Assembly (NCBI RefSeq): GCF_024734405.1
Contig: NZ_CP059556.1
Span: forward strand, 558,001-622,000
Reading direction: 5' to 3'
From: Saccharopolyspora gregorii
Lineage (GTDB): Bacteria > Actinomycetota > Actinomycetes > Mycobacteriales > Pseudonocardiaceae
Length of the DNA stretch: 64,000 bases
Positions 1,292 to 62,329 of this stretch are shown one piece after another. Under the pieces are notes generated by a model. That model was not told the DNA's origin. It searched no databases and worked only from the letters and a program-made list of their open reading frames with translations. The first letter of the stretch is position 1. The number at the start of each line of letters is the position of its first letter. The translations under genes and the position numbers were made by a program.

Positions 1292-2656
1292 ATGAGCGCA
1301 CCTGCCGTCCTGTGGTTCCGGCGCGACCTGCGGGTCCGCGACCACCCGGCGCTGGCCGCCGCGGCGCGCGACGGCCGCCGGGTGATCGGGGTGTTCGTGC
1401 TGGACGAGGCGCTGCTCGCGCCGGCGGGCCCGCCCCGCCGCACCTTCCTGTACCGCTGCCTGCGGGAGCTCGACGCGAGCCTCGGTGGTCGGCTGCTGGT
1501 GCTGCGCGGTGCTCCGGCGCAGGTGCTGCCGGAGCTCGTTGCGGAGGTCGGCGCCGGTTCGGTGCACGTCTCCGCCGACACCGGGCCCTACGGACGGGAG
1601 CGCGACGAGCGGGTGCGGGACGCGCTCGGCGAGGTCGAGTGGGTCGCCACCGGTTCGCCGTACGCGGTCACCCCGGGACGCGTCACCAAGCGGGACGGCA
1701 CCGCCTACCAGGTGTTCACCCCGTTCCGGCGTGCCTGGGACGAGCACGGCCGGCCCGCGCCCGCGGACACCGACGGGTCCACGGCGGACTGGCTGCTGCC
1801 GCGGAAGGTGCGCGCCGCCGGGATCCCCGCGGACGAGGACCTGGGCGGCGTCGTGCTGCCACCGGCGGGGGAGCGGGCCGCGCTGGAGCGCTGGGACGAC
1901 TTCCGCGCTTCCGCGCTCACCGGCTACGACCGGGACCGGGACCGGCCGGACCGCGCGGGCACCAGCCGGATGTCGCCGTACCTGAAGTGGGGCTGCGTGC
2001 ATCCGCGCACCCTGCTCGCCGACCTGGCCTGCGAGGTCGGGGACGGCGCGAGCAGCTACCGGAACGAGCTGGCGTTCCGCGATTTCTACGCGGACGTGCT
2101 GTGGCACCGCCCGGACAGCGCCCGGCACAACTTCGACACCCGCTACGACCGGATCCGGCTGGACACCGACGCCGACGCCTGGGACCGGTTCGGCGAGTGG
2201 TGCGCGGGCCGCACCGGGTTCCCGATCGTGGACGCGGGGATGCGGCAGCTGCTCGCGGAGGGCTGGATGCACAACCGGGTGCGGATGGTGGTGGCGAGCT
2301 TCCTGGTGAAGGACCTGCACCTGCCGTGGTGGTGGGGCGCCCGGCACTTCATGCGGCACCTGGTGGACGGGGACCTCGCCTCGAACCAGCACGGCTGGCA
2401 GTGGGCCGCGGGTTCCGGCACCGACGCCGCCCCCTATTTCCGGGTCTTCAACCCGATCACCCAGGGCACCCGGTTCGACCCGGACGGCGCGTACGTCCGC
2501 GAGCACGTCCCCGAGCTGCGCGGGCTCGACGCGAAGAGCACCCACCGGCCGTGGACCCTGCCGGACGGTCCGCCGAACGGCTATCCGCCGCCGATCGTCG
2601 AGCACGGCGTTGAACGGCAGGAGGCGCTGGCCCGCTACGGCGAGATCAAGAACTGA
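1292..2656 (+). CDS. phr: Deoxyribodipyrimidine photolyase, class I
   Basis: A light-driven DNA repair enzyme of 454 residues that splits cyclobutane pyrimidine dimers using reduced FAD plus an antenna cofactor. The N-terminal alpha/beta antenna domain begins AVLWFRRDLRVRDHPAL. The FAD domain shows YLKWGCVHPRTLL, SYRNELAFRDFYADVLW, GFPIVDAGMRQL and the WMHNRVRM stretch, followed by SNQHGWQWAAGSGTDA and PYFRVFNP, all typical of class I enzymes. The frame is open further upstream through the 34-bp repeat, but that part is repeat-derived; the ATG at 1292 gives the canonical N-terminus. No strong ribosome binding site precedes it. A cryptochrome-like relative cannot be excluded, although the conserved NQHGWQW region favours a true photolyase. 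Confidence 0.95.
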   Translation: MSAPAVLWFRRDLRVRDHPALAAAARDGRRVIGVFVLDEALLAPAGPPRRTFLYRCLRELDASLGGRLLVLRGAPAQVLPELVAEVGAGSVHVSADTGPYGRERDERVRDALGEVEWVATGSPYAVTPGRVTKRDGTAYQVFTPFRRAWDEHGRPAPADTDGSTADWLLPRKVRAAGIPADEDLGGVVLPPAGERAALERWDDFRASALTGYDRDRDRPDRAGTSRMSPYLKWGCVHPRTLLADLACEVGDGASSYRNELAFRDFYADVLWHRPDSARHNFDTRYDRIRLDTDADAWDRFGEWCAGRTGFPIVDAGMRQLLAEGWMHNRVRMVVASFLVKDLHLPWWWGARHFMRHLVDGDLASNQHGWQWAAGSGTDAAPYFRVFNPITQGTRFDPDGAYVREHVPELRGLDAKSTHRPWTLPDGPPNGYPPPIVEHGVERQEALARYGEIKN

Positions 2657-2670
2657 CGTCCCCGGAACGC

Positions 2671-2709
2671 GGAACGGCCCGCACCCCGATGAGGGATGCG
2701 GGCCGTTCC
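2671..2709 (+). terminator. Terminator after phr
   Basis: GGAACGGCCCGCA (2671-2683) and TGCGGGCCGTTCC (2697-2709) form a perfect 13-bp stem with a 13-nt loop, 15 bp past the phr stop. Confidence 0.8.
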
Positions 2710-2776
2710 GAACGTCGTCCTAGCCGGTCAGCGGCAAAGTCCCTGACCGCCCGTCTCCGAACCTGCCCGGCGGGTC

Positions 2777-2948
2777 GTGTCCGTCTTCCTGTCAGCGGCG
2801 AAGCCGCTGAGCTGCCGACCGAGCACGCAACCGGACCACCCGCGGGTTCTCAGCGGTTCGCTCGCGAGGACAGCGATTTCTCGTGTGGCGGAGCCACTCG
2901 TGAAATCGATCCCGCAGCGAGGGGGCCGCTGAGGTTCCGCCACCCGAG
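2777..2948 (+). repeat. Structured intergenic repeat, copy A (full length)
   Basis: About 172 bp lying between the convergent phr and the T7SS gene at 2984-3718. It has three parts. First is a CAGCGGC-GAA-GCCGCTG hairpin (2793-2809). Second is a long stem with arms 2851-2865 and 2917-2931. Inside that stem lie GATTTC/GAAATC (2875-2880 with 2902-2907) and an inner GTGGC-GGA-GCCAC hairpin (2884-2896). It ends with GAGGTTCCGCCACCCGAG. Copy C at 62159-62329 aligns over the whole length, with paired substitutions in two stems. A minus-strand frame stays open through it but has no ribosome binding site, so I read it as a non-coding structured element. Confidence 0.85.
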
Positions 2949-2983
2949 CTCCTCGCCCGCCGAGTCCGAATACCACCGCGTGA

Positions 2984-3718
2984 TCAGTCGCCGCGGCGGA
3001 TGGGGCCGAGGATCTCCCGTTCCTTGGCGCCGGTGACCAGCGTGATCGGCTCCCACAGGTTGTCCCCGAGGGCGATCACCCCGTCGTCCTTGAGCTGGGT
3101 GAGGTGCTGGATCTGCTGCTGCCCGAAGTACCAGAACCGCGCGGCCAGCTGCGCCTGCTGCAACGGCAGGCGCTGCAGCAGGATCAGGTCGGCGGTGTTG
3201 GTGGCCGCACCGCTGCCCGCCTGCGGGTGCAGGTAGGGCAGCACGTACATGGTGGTCTGCCACGGGACGCGCGGCGGGAACATCTCCTGCGGCACCGCGC
3301 CGCCGTCGTGGATCAGCAGCAGCGGCGACTCCTCGGTGACCCGGGGGACGTCGTAGGGGGCGAGCTTGCGCAGGCTCACCACCGGGACCGGCTTGCCGTC
3401 GGGGGTGAGCCCCGCGGCCCGCTCCAGCACCCGCCACGCGCCGGGGCGGCCGGTGACCACGTGCACCCAGGCGCCCGCGGCCATGGCGCGCAGCGCGATC
3501 TGCCGCGCCAGGTACAGGCCGCCGACGGTGACCATGCGGGTCGGTTCGGGCCGCAGGATCGACGCGGTCAGCGGCTCCCCGGTCGGCCCGGCGCCGATGA
3601 TCATTCCGCCGCGGTCGCCGGGCGGGCTCACCAGGTCCAGCATCTCCGGCCGCACCAGGAACTCCGGCGCGGTGCCGGTGCTGTTGCCGGGGGTGTCGAG
3701 GGTTCGCGTCCGGCTCAT
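2984..3718 (-). CDS. Uncharacterised T7SS-linked protein
   Basis: A 244-residue soluble protein encoded directly downstream of eccE, with its ATG overlapping the eccE stop (ATGA at 3715-3718), so the two are probably translationally coupled. I do not recognise a domain. The N-terminal half has a GGMIIGAGPTGEPLTASILR segment and a VTVGGLYLARQIALRAMAAG helix followed by HVVTGRPGAW. This reads like a nucleotide- or ESX-membrane-protein-associated alpha/beta fold, but it lacks a clean Walker A motif. The C-terminal half (ADLILLQRLPLQQAQLAARF) is rich in Gln and Leu and may be helical. There are no signal peptide or membrane segments. A function in ESX secretion is inferred only from position. Confidence 0.6.
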   Translation of the reverse strand: MSRTRTLDTPGNSTGTAPEFLVRPEMLDLVSPPGDRGGMIIGAGPTGEPLTASILRPEPTRMVTVGGLYLARQIALRAMAAGAWVHVVTGRPGAWRVLERAAGLTPDGKPVPVVSLRKLAPYDVPRVTEESPLLLIHDGGAVPQEMFPPRVPWQTTMYVLPYLHPQAGSGAATNTADLILLQRLPLQQAQLAARFWYFGQQQIQHLTQLKDDGVIALGDNLWEPITLVTGAKEREILGPIRRGD

Positions 3719-14700: not shown

Positions 14701-15822
14701 GCCAACCGGTGGGCCGCGATCCGGCCGCAGCTCAAGGACGCCCTCGGCACCCGCATGGAGCTCCGGCTCGGTGACCCCGGCGAGTCCGAGGTCAACCGCA
14801 AGGTCGCGGTGACGGTGCCGCTGGGCCGCCCGGGCCGCGGGCTGCACGCCACGCAGCTGCACTACCTGACGGCACTGCCCCGGGTGGACAGCGAGAAGCT
14901 CGGCGACCGGATCCCCGCGGAGGCGGCGCGCGCCGAGGCGGCGAACGAGAAGCACCCGCGCCCGTCGTGGGAGCTCTACAACGACGACCTCGCCGACGGC
15001 GTCGCCGACCTGGTCAACCGGGTCCGCAGCTCGTGGAAGGGCCGTCCGGCGCCGCAGGTCCGGCTGCTGCCGAACCTGCTGCCGTACGAGCAGCTGCCCG
15101 CCAAGGAGCAGCAGCCGCGTCCGCACCTGGTGCCGATCGGCATCAACGAGGACGGGCTCAACCCGGTCTACCTGGACTTCAAGGCCGAACCGCACTTCTA
15201 CGCGTTCGGCGAGCGCGAGTCCGGGAAGACGGCGCTGCTGCGCACCATCGTCAACGGCATCACCAGCCGGTACACCCGCGAGCAGGCGCTGATCCTGCTC
15301 GTCGACGTGCGCCGCACGATGCTGGGCGTGGTGCCGGACTCGCACCTCATGGAGTACACGGTCACCGCGGACCAGCTGAAGAACAACGTGCGGGACATCG
15401 CCGCCGCGTTGAAGAAGCGGCTGCCCGGCCCGGACGTCACCCAGGAGCAGCTGCGGGACCGCTCCTGGTGGAAGGGCGCGGACCTGTTCATCGTGATCGA
15501 CGACTACGAGCTGATCTCGCCGCAGGGCAGCAACCCGCTGGCACCGCTGGCGGAGTTCGTCGCGCAGGCCTCCGACGTGGGGCTGCACATGGTGATCGCC
15601 CGGAACTCGGGCAACGCCAGCCGTGCGCTGTTCGAGCCGATCATCGGCAAGATGCGGGAGGTCTCGGCGCCCGGTCTCGCGATGAGCGCGAACAAGGACG
15701 ACGGGCAGCTCGTCGGCAACGTCAAGTCCCGGCAGCTGCCGCCGGGGCGCGGGACGCTGGTCAGCCGCTCGTTGCGCGGCGGCCCGCAGCTGATCCAGAC
15801 GGCGTACTCGCAGCCGCAGTGA
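11731..15822 (+). CDS. eccC: Type VII secretion FtsK/SpoIIIE ATPase EccC (EccCa-EccCb fused)
   Basis: A 1363-residue motor ATPase of the ESX translocon, with the two halves that are separate in some ESX systems joined. Two N-terminal membrane helices near residues 40-85 include a run of methionines (PMMMMMPMMML). Three FtsK-type nucleotide-binding domains follow. The first has GATGSGKSEF near residue 485 and an acidic VVIDEFGE Walker B. The second has GGPQTGKSN near 845 with FLIVDGWE, and the third GERESGKTA near 1158 with FIVIDDYE. Only the first shows a full DE Walker B, in line with EccC proteins, where the first domain does the hydrolysis. I prefer the GTG at 11731, 12 bases after AGGAAAGG, over an upstream TTG at 11701. 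Confidence 0.96.
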   Translation: MSTLQFKRLPRMAAPRPPGGEVHLEPPPEIPRVIPGNIVQKVLPGVMIVASLGMMVFMLQRAKDNPMMMMMPMMMLVSTFGMMAGGGKDGGQKKAEMNEDRKDYLRYLGQMRDRAREAADEQRLAREWVHPDPQTLWSLANGTRRMWERRPNDNDFCQVRVGRGSQRLETRLVPPQTGPVDELEPITTLALRRFVRAHSLVAQLPIATSLRGFAAVGLQGDRVLTRGLARAMLAQLATFHSPNDVIIAIASSGRSRTEWDWVKWLPHAQHPTETDGIGPMRLMSGSLWGIEEMLAEQLDERPRFQRNAAPPEGQPHIVIVLDDAEISREEQLIVEGGLAGVTIIDLSDVLGPMTQRRGMRIVVEPDRIGARGQNSVEWFGEPDALTMEEATSLARQMARYRIASGPAAVEDSGGFEPLTTQLNYIEQLGLAGDPVTFDLNEAWRPRPRDDMYRVAIGPGEQGEIVHLDIKETASGGMGPHGLCIGATGSGKSEFLRTIVLGLLATHSSAALNFVLVDFKGGATFKGFDNAPHVSASISNLGDDSTLVDRMQAALEGEMNRRQEVLDKAGAKNVWDYRKLYEAGHDNAKDPLPALFVVIDEFGELLQQKPEFADLFTMIGRLGRSLQVHLLLASQRLEEGKLRGLDSHLSYRIGLKTFNASESRAAIGIPDAADLPSNGGHGYLKHPNGMERFRAAYVSGHDHQTSGRRPIGRAASPVTGEKRPRFFIPDFVEKPPEPEAPVVEEEPKKKDDLAPTDFQLVISKVEGQWPPAHMVWLPPLDAPPTLDGLLPPLQATDDRGYTAVGHPGSGKLEVPIGLIDVPYHQRQDPLVLRFANGAEGNGAVVGGPQTGKSNLLRTMIASMALTHTPQEVQFYCVDLGGGSLSALRNLPHVGAYGNRRDPDTVRRTIAEVKSLLAAREGRFQEAGIDSMADFRNRKRRGEITDDPYGDVFLIVDGWEAFRAESEFEPLEPEINNLVQQGLAFGIHVFIGANRWAAIRPQLKDALGTRMELRLGDPGESEVNRKVAVTVPLGRPGRGLHATQLHYLTALPRVDSEKLGDRIPAEAARAEAANEKHPRPSWELYNDDLADGVADLVNRVRSSWKGRPAPQVRLLPNLLPYEQLPAKEQQPRPHLVPIGINEDGLNPVYLDFKAEPHFYAFGERESGKTALLRTIVNGITSRYTREQALILLVDVRRTMLGVVPDSHLMEYTVTADQLKNNVRDIAAALKKRLPGPDVTQEQLRDRSWWKGADLFIVIDDYELISPQGSNPLAPLAEFVAQASDVGLHMVIARNSGNASRALFEPIIGKMREVSAPGLAMSANKDDGQLVGNVKSRQLPPGRGTLVSRSLRGGPQLIQTAYSQPQ

Positions 15823-15848
15823 TCGGCGGGTCCCGTGCGGACCGCTGG

Positions 15849-15883
15849 CGGCCCTCCCCCGTCCTCGTGGCGGGGGAGGGCCG
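15849..15883 (+). terminator. Terminator after eccC
   Basis: CGGCCCTCCCCCG (15849-15861) pairs perfectly with CGGGGGAGGGCCG (15871-15883) over 13 bp with a 9-nt loop. Confidence 0.85.
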
Positions 15884-15952
15884 TCGTCGCTCTCGGTGAA
15901 TGACACGATCGAGCGAAGATCTTCCTCGGTGTTCGCGCTTATGGTGTGGGCC

Positions 15953-39617: not shown

Positions 39618-39630
39618 CTCCTGCTTCGTC

Positions 39631-39811
39631 GAGTGAACGGACCGTTCGTCCCATCTAGTTGGTCGAACGGTCCGTTCACTCGTGCCGTTCGTCAGGGGTG
39701 AACGGACCGTTCGCCTCGTCTGGTTGGTCGAACGGTCCGTTGACCCGGGCTGTTCGTCGCGGGTGAACGGACCGTTCGTCCGGTCTGGTTGGACGAGCGG
39801 TCCGTTCACCC
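39631..39811. repeat. GAACGGACCGTTC inverted-repeat cluster 1 (three copies)
   Basis: Three units at 39631-39681, 39698-39744 and 39761-39811. Each has arms built on GTGAACGGACCGTTCG and its complement around a 15-nt loop ending in TAGTTGG or TGGTTGG. In the first unit 18 bp pair perfectly; the third has one G-U substitution and the second one mismatch. Between the units run short spacers. Location 14 bp after the DUF6986 stop would suit tandem terminators, but there is no T-run and the same element recurs in two other clusters. Confidence 0.9.
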
Positions 39812-39861
39812 GGCGCGGGCGGCTAGGGTCGGTGGGAGTCCGATCGGCCTGGGGAGGCGGC

Positions 39862-42875: not shown

Positions 42876-42987
42876 TGTGGACCTCCTGGTGGCGGCCGGT
42901 GCCGATCTCGGTTCCCGAGATCATCTCCTGCCAGCGTACGCGAGGAACGGGCATACCGGACGGCTCTGGAGCGCCGCTCGCCGCGGG

Positions 42988-43095
42988 TGAACGGACCGTT
43001 TGCCTCGTCTAGTTGGACGAACGGTCCGTTCAGCTGTGCTGGGTGGGGAGTGAACGGACCGTTTGCCTCATCTGGTTGGACGAACGGTCCGTTCG
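42988..43095. repeat. GAACGGACCGTTC inverted-repeat cluster 2 (two copies)
   Basis: Units at 42988-43032 and 43051-43095 with arms TGAACGGACCGTTTG and CGAACGGTCCGTTCA around a 15-nt loop containing TAGTTGG or TGGTTGG. The T-G pair inside the arm (TTTG against CGAA) is a wobble found again in cluster 3. The cluster lies between the small RS-rich protein gene and the TetR gene, both on the minus strand, so it is downstream of the TetR gene. Confidence 0.9.
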
Positions 43096-43118
43096 CCCCT
43101 GTCGCGGGTGGTGGCGCG

Positions 43119-44701: not shown

Positions 44702-44810
44702 ATCCGAGCTCGGCTCCGGTCGTCTCCTGCCCTCGGCCGGTGCGGTGGGCGCGGTGGGGAGCGGCTGCCGCCGCGGAACCCCGGTGGGAGGTGGACGACC
44801 CGCGCCTGCG

Positions 44811-44969
44811 TTGGTCGAACGGTCCGTTCACCTCGTCCAGCCCGGAAGCAGGTCGGGGTGAACGGACCGTTTGCCTGATCTGGTTGGTCGAAGGGTCCGT
44901 TGACTCGGGGAGTCGGGTGGGGGTGAACGGACCGTTTGCCTCATCTAGTTGGTCGAACGGTCCGTTCAC
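44811..44969. repeat. GAACGGACCGTTC inverted-repeat cluster 3 (two and a half copies)
   Basis: A half unit at 44811-44834 has only the right arm (TTGGTCGAACGGTCCGTTCA). Full units follow at 44858-44904 (arms with two mismatches) and 44923-44969 (GTGAACGGACCGTTTG with CGAACGGTCCGTTCAC). The cluster fills most of the gap between the NmrA-type gene and the small minus-strand gene at 45070-45339. The half copy indicates loss of an arm or incomplete insertion. Confidence 0.9.
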
Positions 44970-45069
44970 TCCGGGGTGGTGGCCGGGCGCTGGTCGGAGG
45001 GGGTGCGCCCGGCCACCGGCCGGTCCGGGGCGGTGTCGGGGAGGTCCCGCCGCGGACCGGGTCAGGGGC

Positions 45070-45507: not shown

Positions 45508-46377
45508 ATGCGGCAATCAGAAGCCCTGCGTCAGCTCGGGCTCGGCGTGCGACTGCGCACCTTGCGGGAGAACCGCGGAATGACCACCCGATCGGTGGCG
45601 GCGGCCCTGGGTGTCTCACGTTCCTCGATCAGCCGGACCGAGCGCGGCACGCGCGCCCCGGATCGCGAGGAGGTGAGCGCGCTGTGCGCGTTGTTCGGCG
45701 TCGTCGGTGACGACAAGCAGGAATTGCTGGACCGCGTCGGCGAGTCGAACGAGACGTCCGCGTGGCTGGCGCTGGGCGACGGCATGTCCGAGCAGCTCGC
45801 AAGCCTGCTCGTGCTGGAACGCGAAGCCGCGAAGATCACGTGTGTGGAACTGGCCTTGATCCCGGGCTTGGCGCAGGCGCCTGACTACACCCGTTGCCTG
45901 ATGGCGAGCGCCGGTCTGCAACCGCGAGAAGTGGAACGCCGGGTGGCGTCGAGGCTCGGCAGGCAAGCAGTGCTGTCCAGGCCGAGGCCTCCGCACGTCC
46001 GCTTCGTGATCGACGAGTCCGCGTTGAGCAGGACCCTGGGCAGTGAAACGGCGCTGAGGTTGCAGCTCGAGCACCTGATCAGCATCGGGCGCCGACCGAA
46101 CGTCGAGATCCGCGTGATTCCGTTGTCCGCTCCGGCACACCGGGTGTTGAACGGGGCGTTCAGCTACTTCGAGCTCGCGGACGGCACGGGCTACGCCTTC
46201 GTCGAGTCGCAGGGTTTCGCCGTATGCCTCGCCGAAGCTGTCGATCTGCGACTGGTCGTGGAAACCTGCAACGAAGTGGACGATATCGCGCTGGGTGAGC
46301 GCGAATCACTGGTGTTGATCAAGAAAGCCGCGGAGGGACTGTCCGATGAGCGACTGGGTGTGGCGGAAGAGCTCTAG
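45508..46377 (+). CDS. XRE-family regulator with DUF5753 domain
   Basis: A 289-residue DNA-binding protein. The helix-turn-helix is at residues 10-65 (LRTLRENRGMTTRSVAAALG, then VSRSSISRTERGTR), and a DUF5753 domain follows (LIPGLAQAPDYTRCLM, RVIPLSAPAHRVLNG and FVESQG). Its 3' end overlaps the first of four DUF397 genes by 32 bp. This is the second such regulator in the window, and it differs in having several small partners instead of one. Confidence 0.88.
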   Translation: MRQSEALRQLGLGVRLRTLRENRGMTTRSVAAALGVSRSSISRTERGTRAPDREEVSALCALFGVVGDDKQELLDRVGESNETSAWLALGDGMSEQLASLLVLEREAAKITCVELALIPGLAQAPDYTRCLMASAGLQPREVERRVASRLGRQAVLSRPRPPHVRFVIDESALSRTLGSETALRLQLEHLISIGRRPNVEIRVIPLSAPAHRVLNGAFSYFELADGTGYAFVESQGFAVCLAEAVDLRLVVETCNEVDDIALGERESLVLIKKAAEGLSDERLGVAEEL

Positions 46378-46549
46378 GAGCAACGCTTACCACAACTGCG
46401 TCGAGGTGGCGTTATCGCCGACGTCCGTGGCGGTCCGGGACTCCAAGGATCGCACGGCCGGTTCCCTGTCGTTCTCGAGGCGGGAATGGCGGAGGTTCCT
46501 GGCGGGCCTCGATGCCGGACGTTCTGGTGGTGAGCCGGACGATGGCTGA
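46346..46549 (+). CDS. DUF397 protein 1 of 4
   Basis: A 67-residue protein with the DUF397 motifs VWRKSSRSN, NCVEVAL, VRDSKDR and WRRFLAGLD. It starts inside the 3' end of the XRE gene and ends 8 bp inside the next DUF397 gene, so translation of the series is probably coupled to the regulator. Confidence 0.88.
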   Translation: MSDWVWRKSSRSNAYHNCVEVALSPTSVAVRDSKDRTAGSLSFSRREWRRFLAGLDAGRSGGEPDDG

Positions 46550-46793
46550 ACCGAACTGGCGGACGAGCACGTACAGCGGTGACTACAACTGCGTAGAGGT
46601 CGCCCTTTTGCCTGAGTCCGCGGCCATTCGGGATTCGAAGGATCGCGCGGCAGGGTTCTTGTCGTTCTCGTCGCGCGCGTGGCAACGTTTCCTGTTCGGG
46701 ATCAAAACCTCCCACTGCGAATGTTGGGCGGAAGGGGAACGACATCATGACCGAACCGACGTGGCGAAAGAGTTCGCGGAGCAACGCATTTGA
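46542..46793 (+). CDS. DUF397 protein 2 of 4, with C-terminal extension
   Basis: An 83-residue variant: NWRTSTYSGDYNCVEVALLP, IRDSKDR and WQRFLFGIK, followed by a tail of about 25 residues with two cysteines (SHCECWAEGERHHD). It is the most divergent of the four. The tail overlaps the start of copy 3 by 47 bp and reads partly through that gene's first codons in another frame, which suggests a lost stop codon. Confidence 0.8.
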   Translation: MAEPNWRTSTYSGDYNCVEVALLPESAAIRDSKDRAAGFLSFSSRAWQRFLFGIKTSHCECWAEGERHHDRTDVAKEFAEQRI

Positions 46794-46935
46794 CAACTGC
46801 GTGGAGGTGGCGTTGTCGCAGGACGCGGCAGCGGTCCGGGATTCCAAGGATCGCGCGGCCGGTTCCCTGTCGTTCTCGACGCGGGACTGGCGGCGGTTCC
46901 TGAGCGGGGTCGGCGAAGGCCACTACGACCGATGA
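46747..46935 (+). CDS. DUF397 protein 3 of 4
   Basis: A 62-residue protein, very similar to copy 1 (TWRKSSRSN, NCVEVALSQ, VRDSKDRAAGSLSFS, WRRFLSGVG). The stop overlaps the start of copy 4 (ATGA at 46932-46935). Confidence 0.86.
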   Translation: MTEPTWRKSSRSNAFDNCVEVALSQDAAAVRDSKDRAAGSLSFSTRDWRRFLSGVGEGHYDR

Positions 46936-47117
46936 GTGAGCTGAACTGGCGGAAGAGCAGTCGTAGCAACCAGTACAACTGCGTGGAAGTGGCGTTATCG
47001 CCCCACTTCGTCGCGGTGCGGGACTCGAAGGCGGTCGAGGGCGGGCGGCTCACCGTCTCCCCGGCCCGCTGGGCTTCGTTCCTCCGCGGCCTCGGATCGG
47101 GCCGCTTCGACCGCTGA
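46932..47117 (+). CDS. DUF397 protein 4 of 4
   Basis: A 61-residue protein (NWRKSSRSNQYNCVEVALSP, VRDSKAVEGGRLTVSPARWA). The segment after VRDSK differs from the other three copies, which share DRAAGSLSFS-like wording, so it is likely the oldest duplicate or under a different constraint. Confidence 0.86.
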   Translation: MSELNWRKSSRSNQYNCVEVALSPHFVAVRDSKAVEGGRLTVSPARWASFLRGLGSGRFDR

Positions 47118-57675: not shown

Positions 57676-57783
57676 GTGTCTCTTTCTTGTCAGCGCGAAG
57701 CGCTGAGCCGCCGACCACACACGCAGAACGACCACTCGCTGGGGTTCCGCCACCCCAGCGCTCCGCAAACCGAGTTCGAAGAC
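57676..57783 (+). repeat. Structured intergenic repeat, copy B (short form)
   Basis: A 108-bp relative of copies A and C in the 161-bp gap inside the allantoin operon. It keeps the GTGTC start, a shortened first hairpin (CAGCGC-GAA-GCGCTG at 57691-57705) and the 3' CGCAAACCGAGTTCGAAGAC word (57764-57783). In place of the nested long stem it has a simple 9-bp hairpin (CGCTGGGGT with ACCCCAGCG). It ends nine bases before the racemase ribosome binding site. Confidence 0.8.
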
Positions 57784-62030: not shown

Positions 62031-62076
62031 GTCTTCGAACTCGGTTTGCGCCGGGCTCGGGTAGCGGAACCTCACC
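62031..62076 (-). repeat. Structured repeat, inverted end fragment (copy D)
   Basis: GTCTTCGAACTCGGTTTGCG (62031-62050) is the exact reverse complement of the 3' end of copy B (57764-57783). It is followed by CTCGGGTAGCGGAACCTCAC, the complement of the conserved GAGGTTCCGCCACCCGAG with one change. Only the 3' end of the element is present; it lies 83 bp before copy C in opposite orientation. Confidence 0.75.
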
Positions 62077-62158
62077 GGTTCCCTCGCCGCCCGCGTTCCC
62101 GGTGTGGCCGCGATTTCTGAGCTACCGGTCCGCTGATTTCCACCCGTGCCCCGCAGTC

Positions 62159-62329
62159 GTGTCCGTTTCCCGTCAGCGGCGAAGCCGCTGAGCCGCCGAC
62201 CGAGCACGCAGCAGGACCACCCGCGGGTTCTCAGCGCCCTCCTCGCGAGGACAGCTTTTTCGCCTGTGGCGGAGCCACCGGTGAAAAAGATCCCGCAGCG
62301 AGGAGGGCGCTGAGGTTCCGCCACCCGAG
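62159..62329 (+). repeat. Structured intergenic repeat, copy C (full length)
   Basis: A 171-bp element between the AraC and MarR genes that aligns with copy A over its whole length. Hairpin 1 is CAGCGGC-GAA-GCCGCTG (62174-62190). The long stem (62232-62246 with 62298-62312) has arms CAGCGCCCTCCTCGC and GCGAGGAGGGCGCTG, perfectly paired. Inside are CTTTTTC/GAAAAAG (62255-62261 with 62283-62289) and the GTGGC-GGA-GCCAC hairpin (62266-62278). Compared with copy A, G-C becomes C-G at one base pair of the long stem and GATTTC/GAAATC becomes CTTTTTC/GAAAAAG, keeping the pairing. Confidence 0.87.

Follow-up and report, generated by a model that had tools for sequence, protein, structure and literature searches.

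A candidate non-autonomous mobile hairpin element, dispersed in genomes of Pseudonocardiaceae and oriented beside stop codons

The window analyzed here is a stretch of 64,000 nucleotides of the Saccharopolyspora gregorii chromosome (contig NZ_CP059556.1, positions 558,001 to 622,000), and it contains four copies, A to D, of one structured element (Table 1). Copy A is flanked by a photolyase gene and a convergent gene lacking any Pfam match, copy B by same-strand permease and Asp/Glu racemase genes, and copy C by same-strand genes for AraC-type and MarR-type regulators, in line with the varied gene contexts described in an earlier reading of the letters alone (hereafter, the sequence-only reading). 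Copies A and C were recovered where that reading had placed them, and the three-part fold that it had proposed for both (hairpin 1 with its GAA loop, then a long stem enclosing an inner stem and a GTGGC-GGA-GCCAC tip) was seen, at energies far below those of shuffled sequences (z -4.3 for copy A and -6.6 for copy C; 0/200 shuffles equal in each case). The paired differences that it had noted between the stems of A and C are real as well. Copy B, as had been described, keeps hairpin 1 and the 3' end and has a short hairpin in place of the nested stem; taken alone, it folds no better than chance (z -0.9, 42/200 shuffles equal). The inverted 3' end, D, had been reported to match copy B exactly over 20 nt, and this stretch is visible within the 47-nt match.

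Table 1. Copies of the element in the window and the features of copies A and C. The covariance model was built from 29 copies, A and C among them; the E-values of these two are not independent of the model.
Feature	Position	Strand	Evidence
Copy A, structured core	2791..2947	+	cmsearch 175.7 bits, E 1.6e-37; model positions 1-156
Copy A, hairpin 1 (8-bp stem and GAA loop)	2792..2810	+	fold; helix 1 with 98.4% of cells paired, 116 distinct copies
Copy A, long nested hairpin	2842..2940	+	closing stem 2842-2865 with 2917-2940; inner stem and GTGGC-GGA-GCCAC tip inside
Copy A, 3' tail, from core to stop codon of convergent gene	2948..2983	+	weakly conserved tail profile; distance 36 nt
TGA stop of convergent 244-aa gene (2984-3718), adjoining copy A	2984..2986	-	alignment with relatives
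Copy B, short form (hairpin 1, spacer, 9-bp hairpin, tail)	57676..57783	+	cmsearch 57689-57757, 37 bits, E 1.4e-6
D, inverted 5'-truncated copy (element 3' end)	62031..62077	-	inverted repeat with copy B, 85% over 47 nt
Copy C, structured core	62172..62328	+	cmsearch 179.5 bits, E 2.3e-38
Copy C, long nested hairpin	62223..62321	+	fold and cmsearch

With up to three mismatches, the hairpin 1 motif occurs twice and the 3' motif four times in the window, versus 0.01 and 0.16 expected, both motifs having been derived from these copies. Known structured RNAs in Rfam are similar to the element in having conserved internal loops and covarying stems; however, no Rfam family matched the window at its gathering threshold. 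Six loci from other genera, scanned at E<=1, gave three weak matches far below the gathering scores, one of them to MIR820 (32 bits versus a gathering score of 196) over the element in locus L068. The window also holds a second repeat family, consisting of near-palindromic 69-nt units around GTGAACGGACCGTTCG...CGAACGGTCCGTTCAC in seven to eight copies (39619-39817, 42973-43104, and 44810-44977), and a similar sequence is present at the site of copy A in the relatives G004 and G005. At 46346-47031, four successive related copies, spaced 182-208 nt apart, encode by eye an NCVEVA...RDSK-like motif, which we take to resemble DUF397 proteins.

The dispersed structured element proposed from the window proved to belong to a large family. 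The covariance model gave at least 144 matches (E<=0.01) in the 6.34-Mb chromosome, with the best 150 of 10,766 candidates scored; this number is a lower bound, and copy B, for example, is absent from the set. For the analyses of genomic context, the 127 copies of at least 69.5 bits were used and the 17 weaker ones were dropped. A BLAST search with copy A, in which 40 of 252 candidate places were scored, returned 46 matches, corresponding to 40 copies, five reverse-strand matches at those copies, and D. All five same-genus relatives searched carry the element. Under stricter filters, 13 of 60 genomes matched, all of them within the same family (13/36, S. gregorii included), and none of the 24 genomes from other families of the order did; in a wider draw of the family, 38/150 genomes and 13/46 genera matched, again with S. 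gregorii included. Since these searches scored the best 50, 150, or 20 candidates per genome, the copy numbers in relatives are lower bounds, with at least 64 matches in Saccharopolyspora spinosa NRRL 18395 (Pseudonocardiaceae) and at least 10 in Pseudonocardia sp. CNS-004. Plasmid and phage collections contained no match to the element, and viral contigs none to one strict pattern. Titles and the openings of abstracts yielded no description of such a family, which does not prove its absence from print; apparently, this is a large repeat family of Pseudonocardiaceae that is new to the literature.

The core of the element measures about 156 bp, or roughly 200-245 bp with its weakly conserved tails, and its fold is conserved. 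In an alignment fitted to the model, with 116 distinct S. gregorii copies drawn from 117 matches at 100 loci, 98.4% of cells were paired and 303 cells carried two-sided changes, against 74.9±12.1 after shuffling and no more than 93 in any slid control; within helix 2, 10 of 23 pairs showed such a change. When copy A was aligned, blind to structure, with 34 of the 44 other-genus copies (the ten left out being lower-scoring or cut), its own fold comprised 41 pairs, 22 of them with two-sided changes. The proposal that pairing is maintained by changes on both partners, which had been made from A and C together with that of a covariance-model search in related genomes, is thus borne out across genera, and changes of one arm without the other, the opposite pattern, are not the rule. 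A protein-coding element was judged unlikely, as the differences fall as matched pairs on both arms. Unpaired segments (internal loops and the 3' motif) are conserved too, both among the copies of the genome and between genera. The core is the best conserved part and the ends are the least conserved, with a steep fall at the core edge, from a consensus of 93-99% inside to 51-80% over the next few bases; the 3' tail is A/G-rich, T-poor, and weakly conserved. A stem closing the element through its flanks was rejected, as the matched flanks of the best 110 copies showed no excess of complementarity (z +0.55; p=0.71, one-sided). Among minority pairs, G-U outnumbers C-A by 65 to 36 (binomial p=0.005, from copies that are related), a lean in favor of the given strand as the folded one.

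The copies occupy a characteristic position with respect to genes, the gene calls being those of our own codon-usage caller trained on the window rather than the annotation. A copy typically has its 3' end beside a site containing a stop codon and lies antisense to the gene that ends there. The downstream gene is antisense to the element in 104/127 S. gregorii copies (69 convergent and 35 tandem), while 17 of the others are tandem the other way and 6 divergent. In 91/127 copies, the stop of the opposite gene falls 0-60 nt from the core 3' end, and in 81 of these at 20-37 nt. The same arrangement is found in 33/42 other-genus copies (with 21 of these 33 stops at 28-39 nt), in 16/19 copies of G004 and G005, where three stop distances came out negative, and in 6/9 copies of G001-G003. 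On the other side of the element, the stops of upstream sense genes are spread from 8 nt to 400 nt (the range scanned), with a mild peak at 40-49 nt (17/83). An upstream sense stop at 25-62 nt was observed in 33/127 copies; thus, some copies adjoin the end of a gene on their 5' side as well. A 5' CTGA is enriched only where a sense gene ends (18/33), because it is the stop of that gene; as a motif of the element itself it was rejected, with 12/94 at the copies where no sense gene ends versus 11/94 in control windows.

The clustering at gene 3' ends (convergent 69, tandem 52, and divergent 6 of 127) would also be expected if the element were a 3'-end RNA structure useful to the host, acting as terminator, RNase barrier, or insulator in a transcript antisense to the neighboring gene and selected site by site. 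The steep fall of conservation at the core edge fits such site-wise selection equally well, and in this it counts against a mobile element; the lean of the G-U pairs, from related copies, points the same way, as does one locus at which four species hold the element with different yet matched arms, the fold being kept. However, the upstream gene is off the strand of the element in 41/127 copies, which leaves the supposed transcript doubtful, and the sites differ between relatives (see below). Moreover, a simple consensus scan of positions 2600-3050 found no promoter-like or terminator-like site and no U-tract terminator, which likewise gives no support to the attenuator and small-RNA-gene options of the sequence-only reading. 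All in all, we consider a host-useful RNA an unlikely, though serious, alternative.

The type of stop codon beside the element is biased as well. In S. gregorii, 89/91 of these stops are TGA versus 126/142 background stops (p=0.011), whereas the bias is toward TAG in Pseudonocardia sp. CNS-004 (5/5 versus 4/16 background, p=0.006) and in S. spinosa (5/10 versus 2/29 background, p=0.007; there, an antisense stop at 5-60 nt was called at only 10/20 loci). TAG accounts for 4/11 in other genera, and G004 and G005 show no stop-type bias (TAG in 3/12 versus 4/22). The tetranucleotide CTAG lies 28-37 nt after the core in 7/8 CNS-004 copies, where 0.07 would be expected for the whole set, and precedes the core by 14-21 nt in 3/8. 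Judged from these sequences, the landing site looks directed by sequence motifs that overlap stop codons. A palindromic CTAG target leaves the orientation bias unexplained by itself; a one-sided insertion that is obliged to leave the stop in place would explain it. A stop codon supplied by the element was rejected for copy A, as five relatives without a full copy at that site have the identical TGA stop in the alignment. On the scale of the chromosome, 93/127 copies read toward the origin (p=1.6e-7, assuming the terminus at 3.17 Mb and dnaA at coordinate 1), and copy orientation is mixed within about 0.95 Mb of coordinate 1. Insertion according to replication strand was not retained as the prime cause, since the antisense-to-gene rule may account for the origin-ward bias.

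Comparison of individual sites indicates that the element moves. Of the 145 S. gregorii copies tried (the 144 and copy B), 17 had matches to both flanks in the stretches fetched from relatives. Four of these sites hold a same-orientation copy in relatives (1248187, where an inverted copy is present too, 2419204, 2076947, and 536319), two an inverted copy (121749 and 983477), and ten, including those of A, B, and C, no model match; one is equivocal (1927188, with hairpin 1 alone at the site and an inverted copy about 1 kb off). Because most of these stretches had been chosen for the copies that the relatives themselves carry, the 4:2:10 split should not be read as a rate of turnover. In locus L063 of G002, the site of copy 1927188 has the form of a solo hairpin 1. 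An apparent inverted remnant is seen at site A in G001; the site matched to B in relatives shares no more than 69-74% identity with it and could be paralogous, and at site C the downstream flank match starts more than 500 bases away. At one further site, with flanks 98-99% identical, G004 carries a copy and G005 gives no match to the model, but this is not a clean insertion, other changes lying beside it. It is from these occupied, inverted, and empty sites among relatives that movement is concluded, in agreement with the mobile, REP/MITE-like option raised from the window. Elsewhere, at 15030-15936 of locus L292, near an element site, about 886 bp are extra in G005 and absent from G004; by eye, this segment may be an insertion sequence. 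In G004, copies of the element sit at the ends of contigs or close to them (C10:103-271 and C12:45515-45670 of 45,768), as if the repeats had broken the assembly there.

Some IS5-type elements use TNA or CTAG as targets, and bacterial MITEs of this type are small and non-autonomous, as the element is. A few copies show further likeness. Terminal repeats, ACTGCCTGTC.../...GACAGGCAGT, a motif derived from the S. gregorii copies, are present at both ends within one mismatch in 5/188 copies, three of which have matching TAA, TGA, or TCA flanks; in addition, CTAG is found within 60 nt on both sides in 4/42 other-genus copies (2/8 in CNS-004, 2/14 in others, and 0/20 in S. spinosa). The element could be a conventional MITE, derived from a DDE insertion sequence, non-autonomous, and bounded by terminal inverted repeats and a short target duplication of TNA or CTAG. 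Yet the repeat pair is missing in 183/188 copies, the core is the most conserved part and the ends the least, the reverse of what is usual for MITEs, and a palindromic target gives no orientation bias, whereas the bias and the oriented position are strong here. A pattern search of the S. gregorii genome for the terminal repeat revealed no evident autonomous partner. Target-site duplication, a check suggested by the sequence-only reading, likewise showed no general signal: outside the three copies with matching TNA flanks, no longer duplication was detected in the 127 S. gregorii copies, and 40 other-genus copies had a small excess (mean longest flank match 5.8 versus 5.4, sd 0.15). We thus give the conventional MITE a low probability.

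The transposase family searched was PF01797 (Y1_Tnp) alone. The S. gregorii genome has no match to it; membership in the RAYT/REPIN system was rejected for this genome, in which a REP-associated tyrosine transposase as mover, a candidate that the sequence-only reading had wanted checked, is not supported either. Y1_Tnp was matched in 6/15 carriers searched (G004, G005, G010, G017, G030, and G060) and missing in 9 (G000-G003, G018, G019, G031, G035, and G061). REPINs (PMC3116915) are dispersed extragenic hairpins, non-autonomous, with common compensatory stem changes among 101 GI copies aligned in one genome, and the element shares these traits. Unlike REPINs, which go with RAYT, the element occurs in a genome without a Y1 match, its hairpin 1 and long hairpin are unlike each other instead of being two inverted copies of one short REP, and it has a fixed, oriented position beside stop codons. 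A further comparison is offered by the palindrome-associated elements derived from IS200/IS605, which have hairpins near both ends and insert in an orientation-specific manner at a one-sided target without duplication. The one-sided, fixed distance to TGA and TAG stops and the lack of a longer duplication in the S. gregorii copies resemble such insertion, which would account for the stop rule, given that the gene is spared only if insertion takes place 3' of the target. The patchy presence of Y1_Tnp among the carriers and its absence from S. gregorii are differences from this group, and the CTAG on both sides of a few other-genus copies has to be set beside it too. The element therefore resembles REPINs and MITEs in its behavior and is a tested member of neither.

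The two-sided change had been taken, in the sequence-only reading, to imply selection on an RNA or single-stranded DNA form. For two-sided change by itself this is not supported, given that G004 and G005, whose genomes are about 99.5% identical, already differ by matched two-arm changes. In 11 orthologous pairs of copies (a twelfth could not be aligned), 42 differences were counted in about 2,430 element columns versus 39 in about 6,380 flanking ones, with four pairs having none in the element columns. Several of the differences are matched changes on both arms, mostly between variants carried by other copies; the CTCAC/GTGAG change in L278, however, was not seen in the other 20 rows compared. 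Within S. gregorii, association is strong between the two arms of a stem (z 22-31), weaker between the neighboring inner stem and tip (z 8-13), and almost absent between arm and tail (z 0.3-1.4), which argues that segments are shuffled among copies while pairing is maintained. That template switching can give rise to compensatory changes has been described (PMC8794818). Since matched arm changes arose at the same loci of near-identical genomes, gene conversion or template switching must share the credit with selection.

Carried further, this would make the covariation a mutational by-product, with template switching at replication keeping long, imperfect palindromes paired, gene conversion homogenizing the copies, and little selection on the fold. 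Two independent substitutions are unlikely to have arisen so fast between G004 and G005, the L278 change is absent from the other 20 rows, and template switching can yield such changes (PMC8794818). Nevertheless, correction of palindromes leaves the conserved unpaired segments (internal loops and 3' motif) unexplained, and hairpin 1 is conserved jointly with the long stem. We regard a pure by-product as improbable.

We favor, with moderate confidence, a family of non-autonomous mobile hairpin elements, REPIN/MITE-like and moved by an enzyme acting in trans, as the reading that brings together the dispersal, the conserved fold, the fixed oriented position, the differing sites, and the segment shuffling. 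An enzyme supplied in trans would recognize the folded single strand (DNA or RNA) and copy it to new sites, where landing beside a stop codon would spare the gene. Within a genome, segments would pass between copies through gene conversion or template switching, and arms that fail to pair would be eliminated because the mover needs the fold. The enzyme may have been lost from S. gregorii or may be of a different kind, and a barrier between neighboring transcripts could be a side benefit. A more specific version, a mobile structured RNA that travels through an RNA or single-stranded intermediate and homes antisense to stops without Y1, as a bacterial counterpart of SINEs, is compatible with the fixed 3' end, the A/G-rich and T-poor tail, 5'-truncated copies such as D, the lack of a general duplication, and the G-U lean, and we hold it to be very unlikely.

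This element should serve as a check on pipelines in which covariation counts as proof that an RNA is functional. It is a natural system for weighing selection against template switching and gene conversion in RNA-like covariation, a long-standing question of RNA evolution, and it suits such a measurement since matched arm changes distinguish even near-identical genomes. For the high-GC actinobacteria, it adds a large and apparently unnamed repeat family, whose placement rule (antisense, some 30 nt away from a stop codon) extends across genera and calls for a mechanistic explanation.
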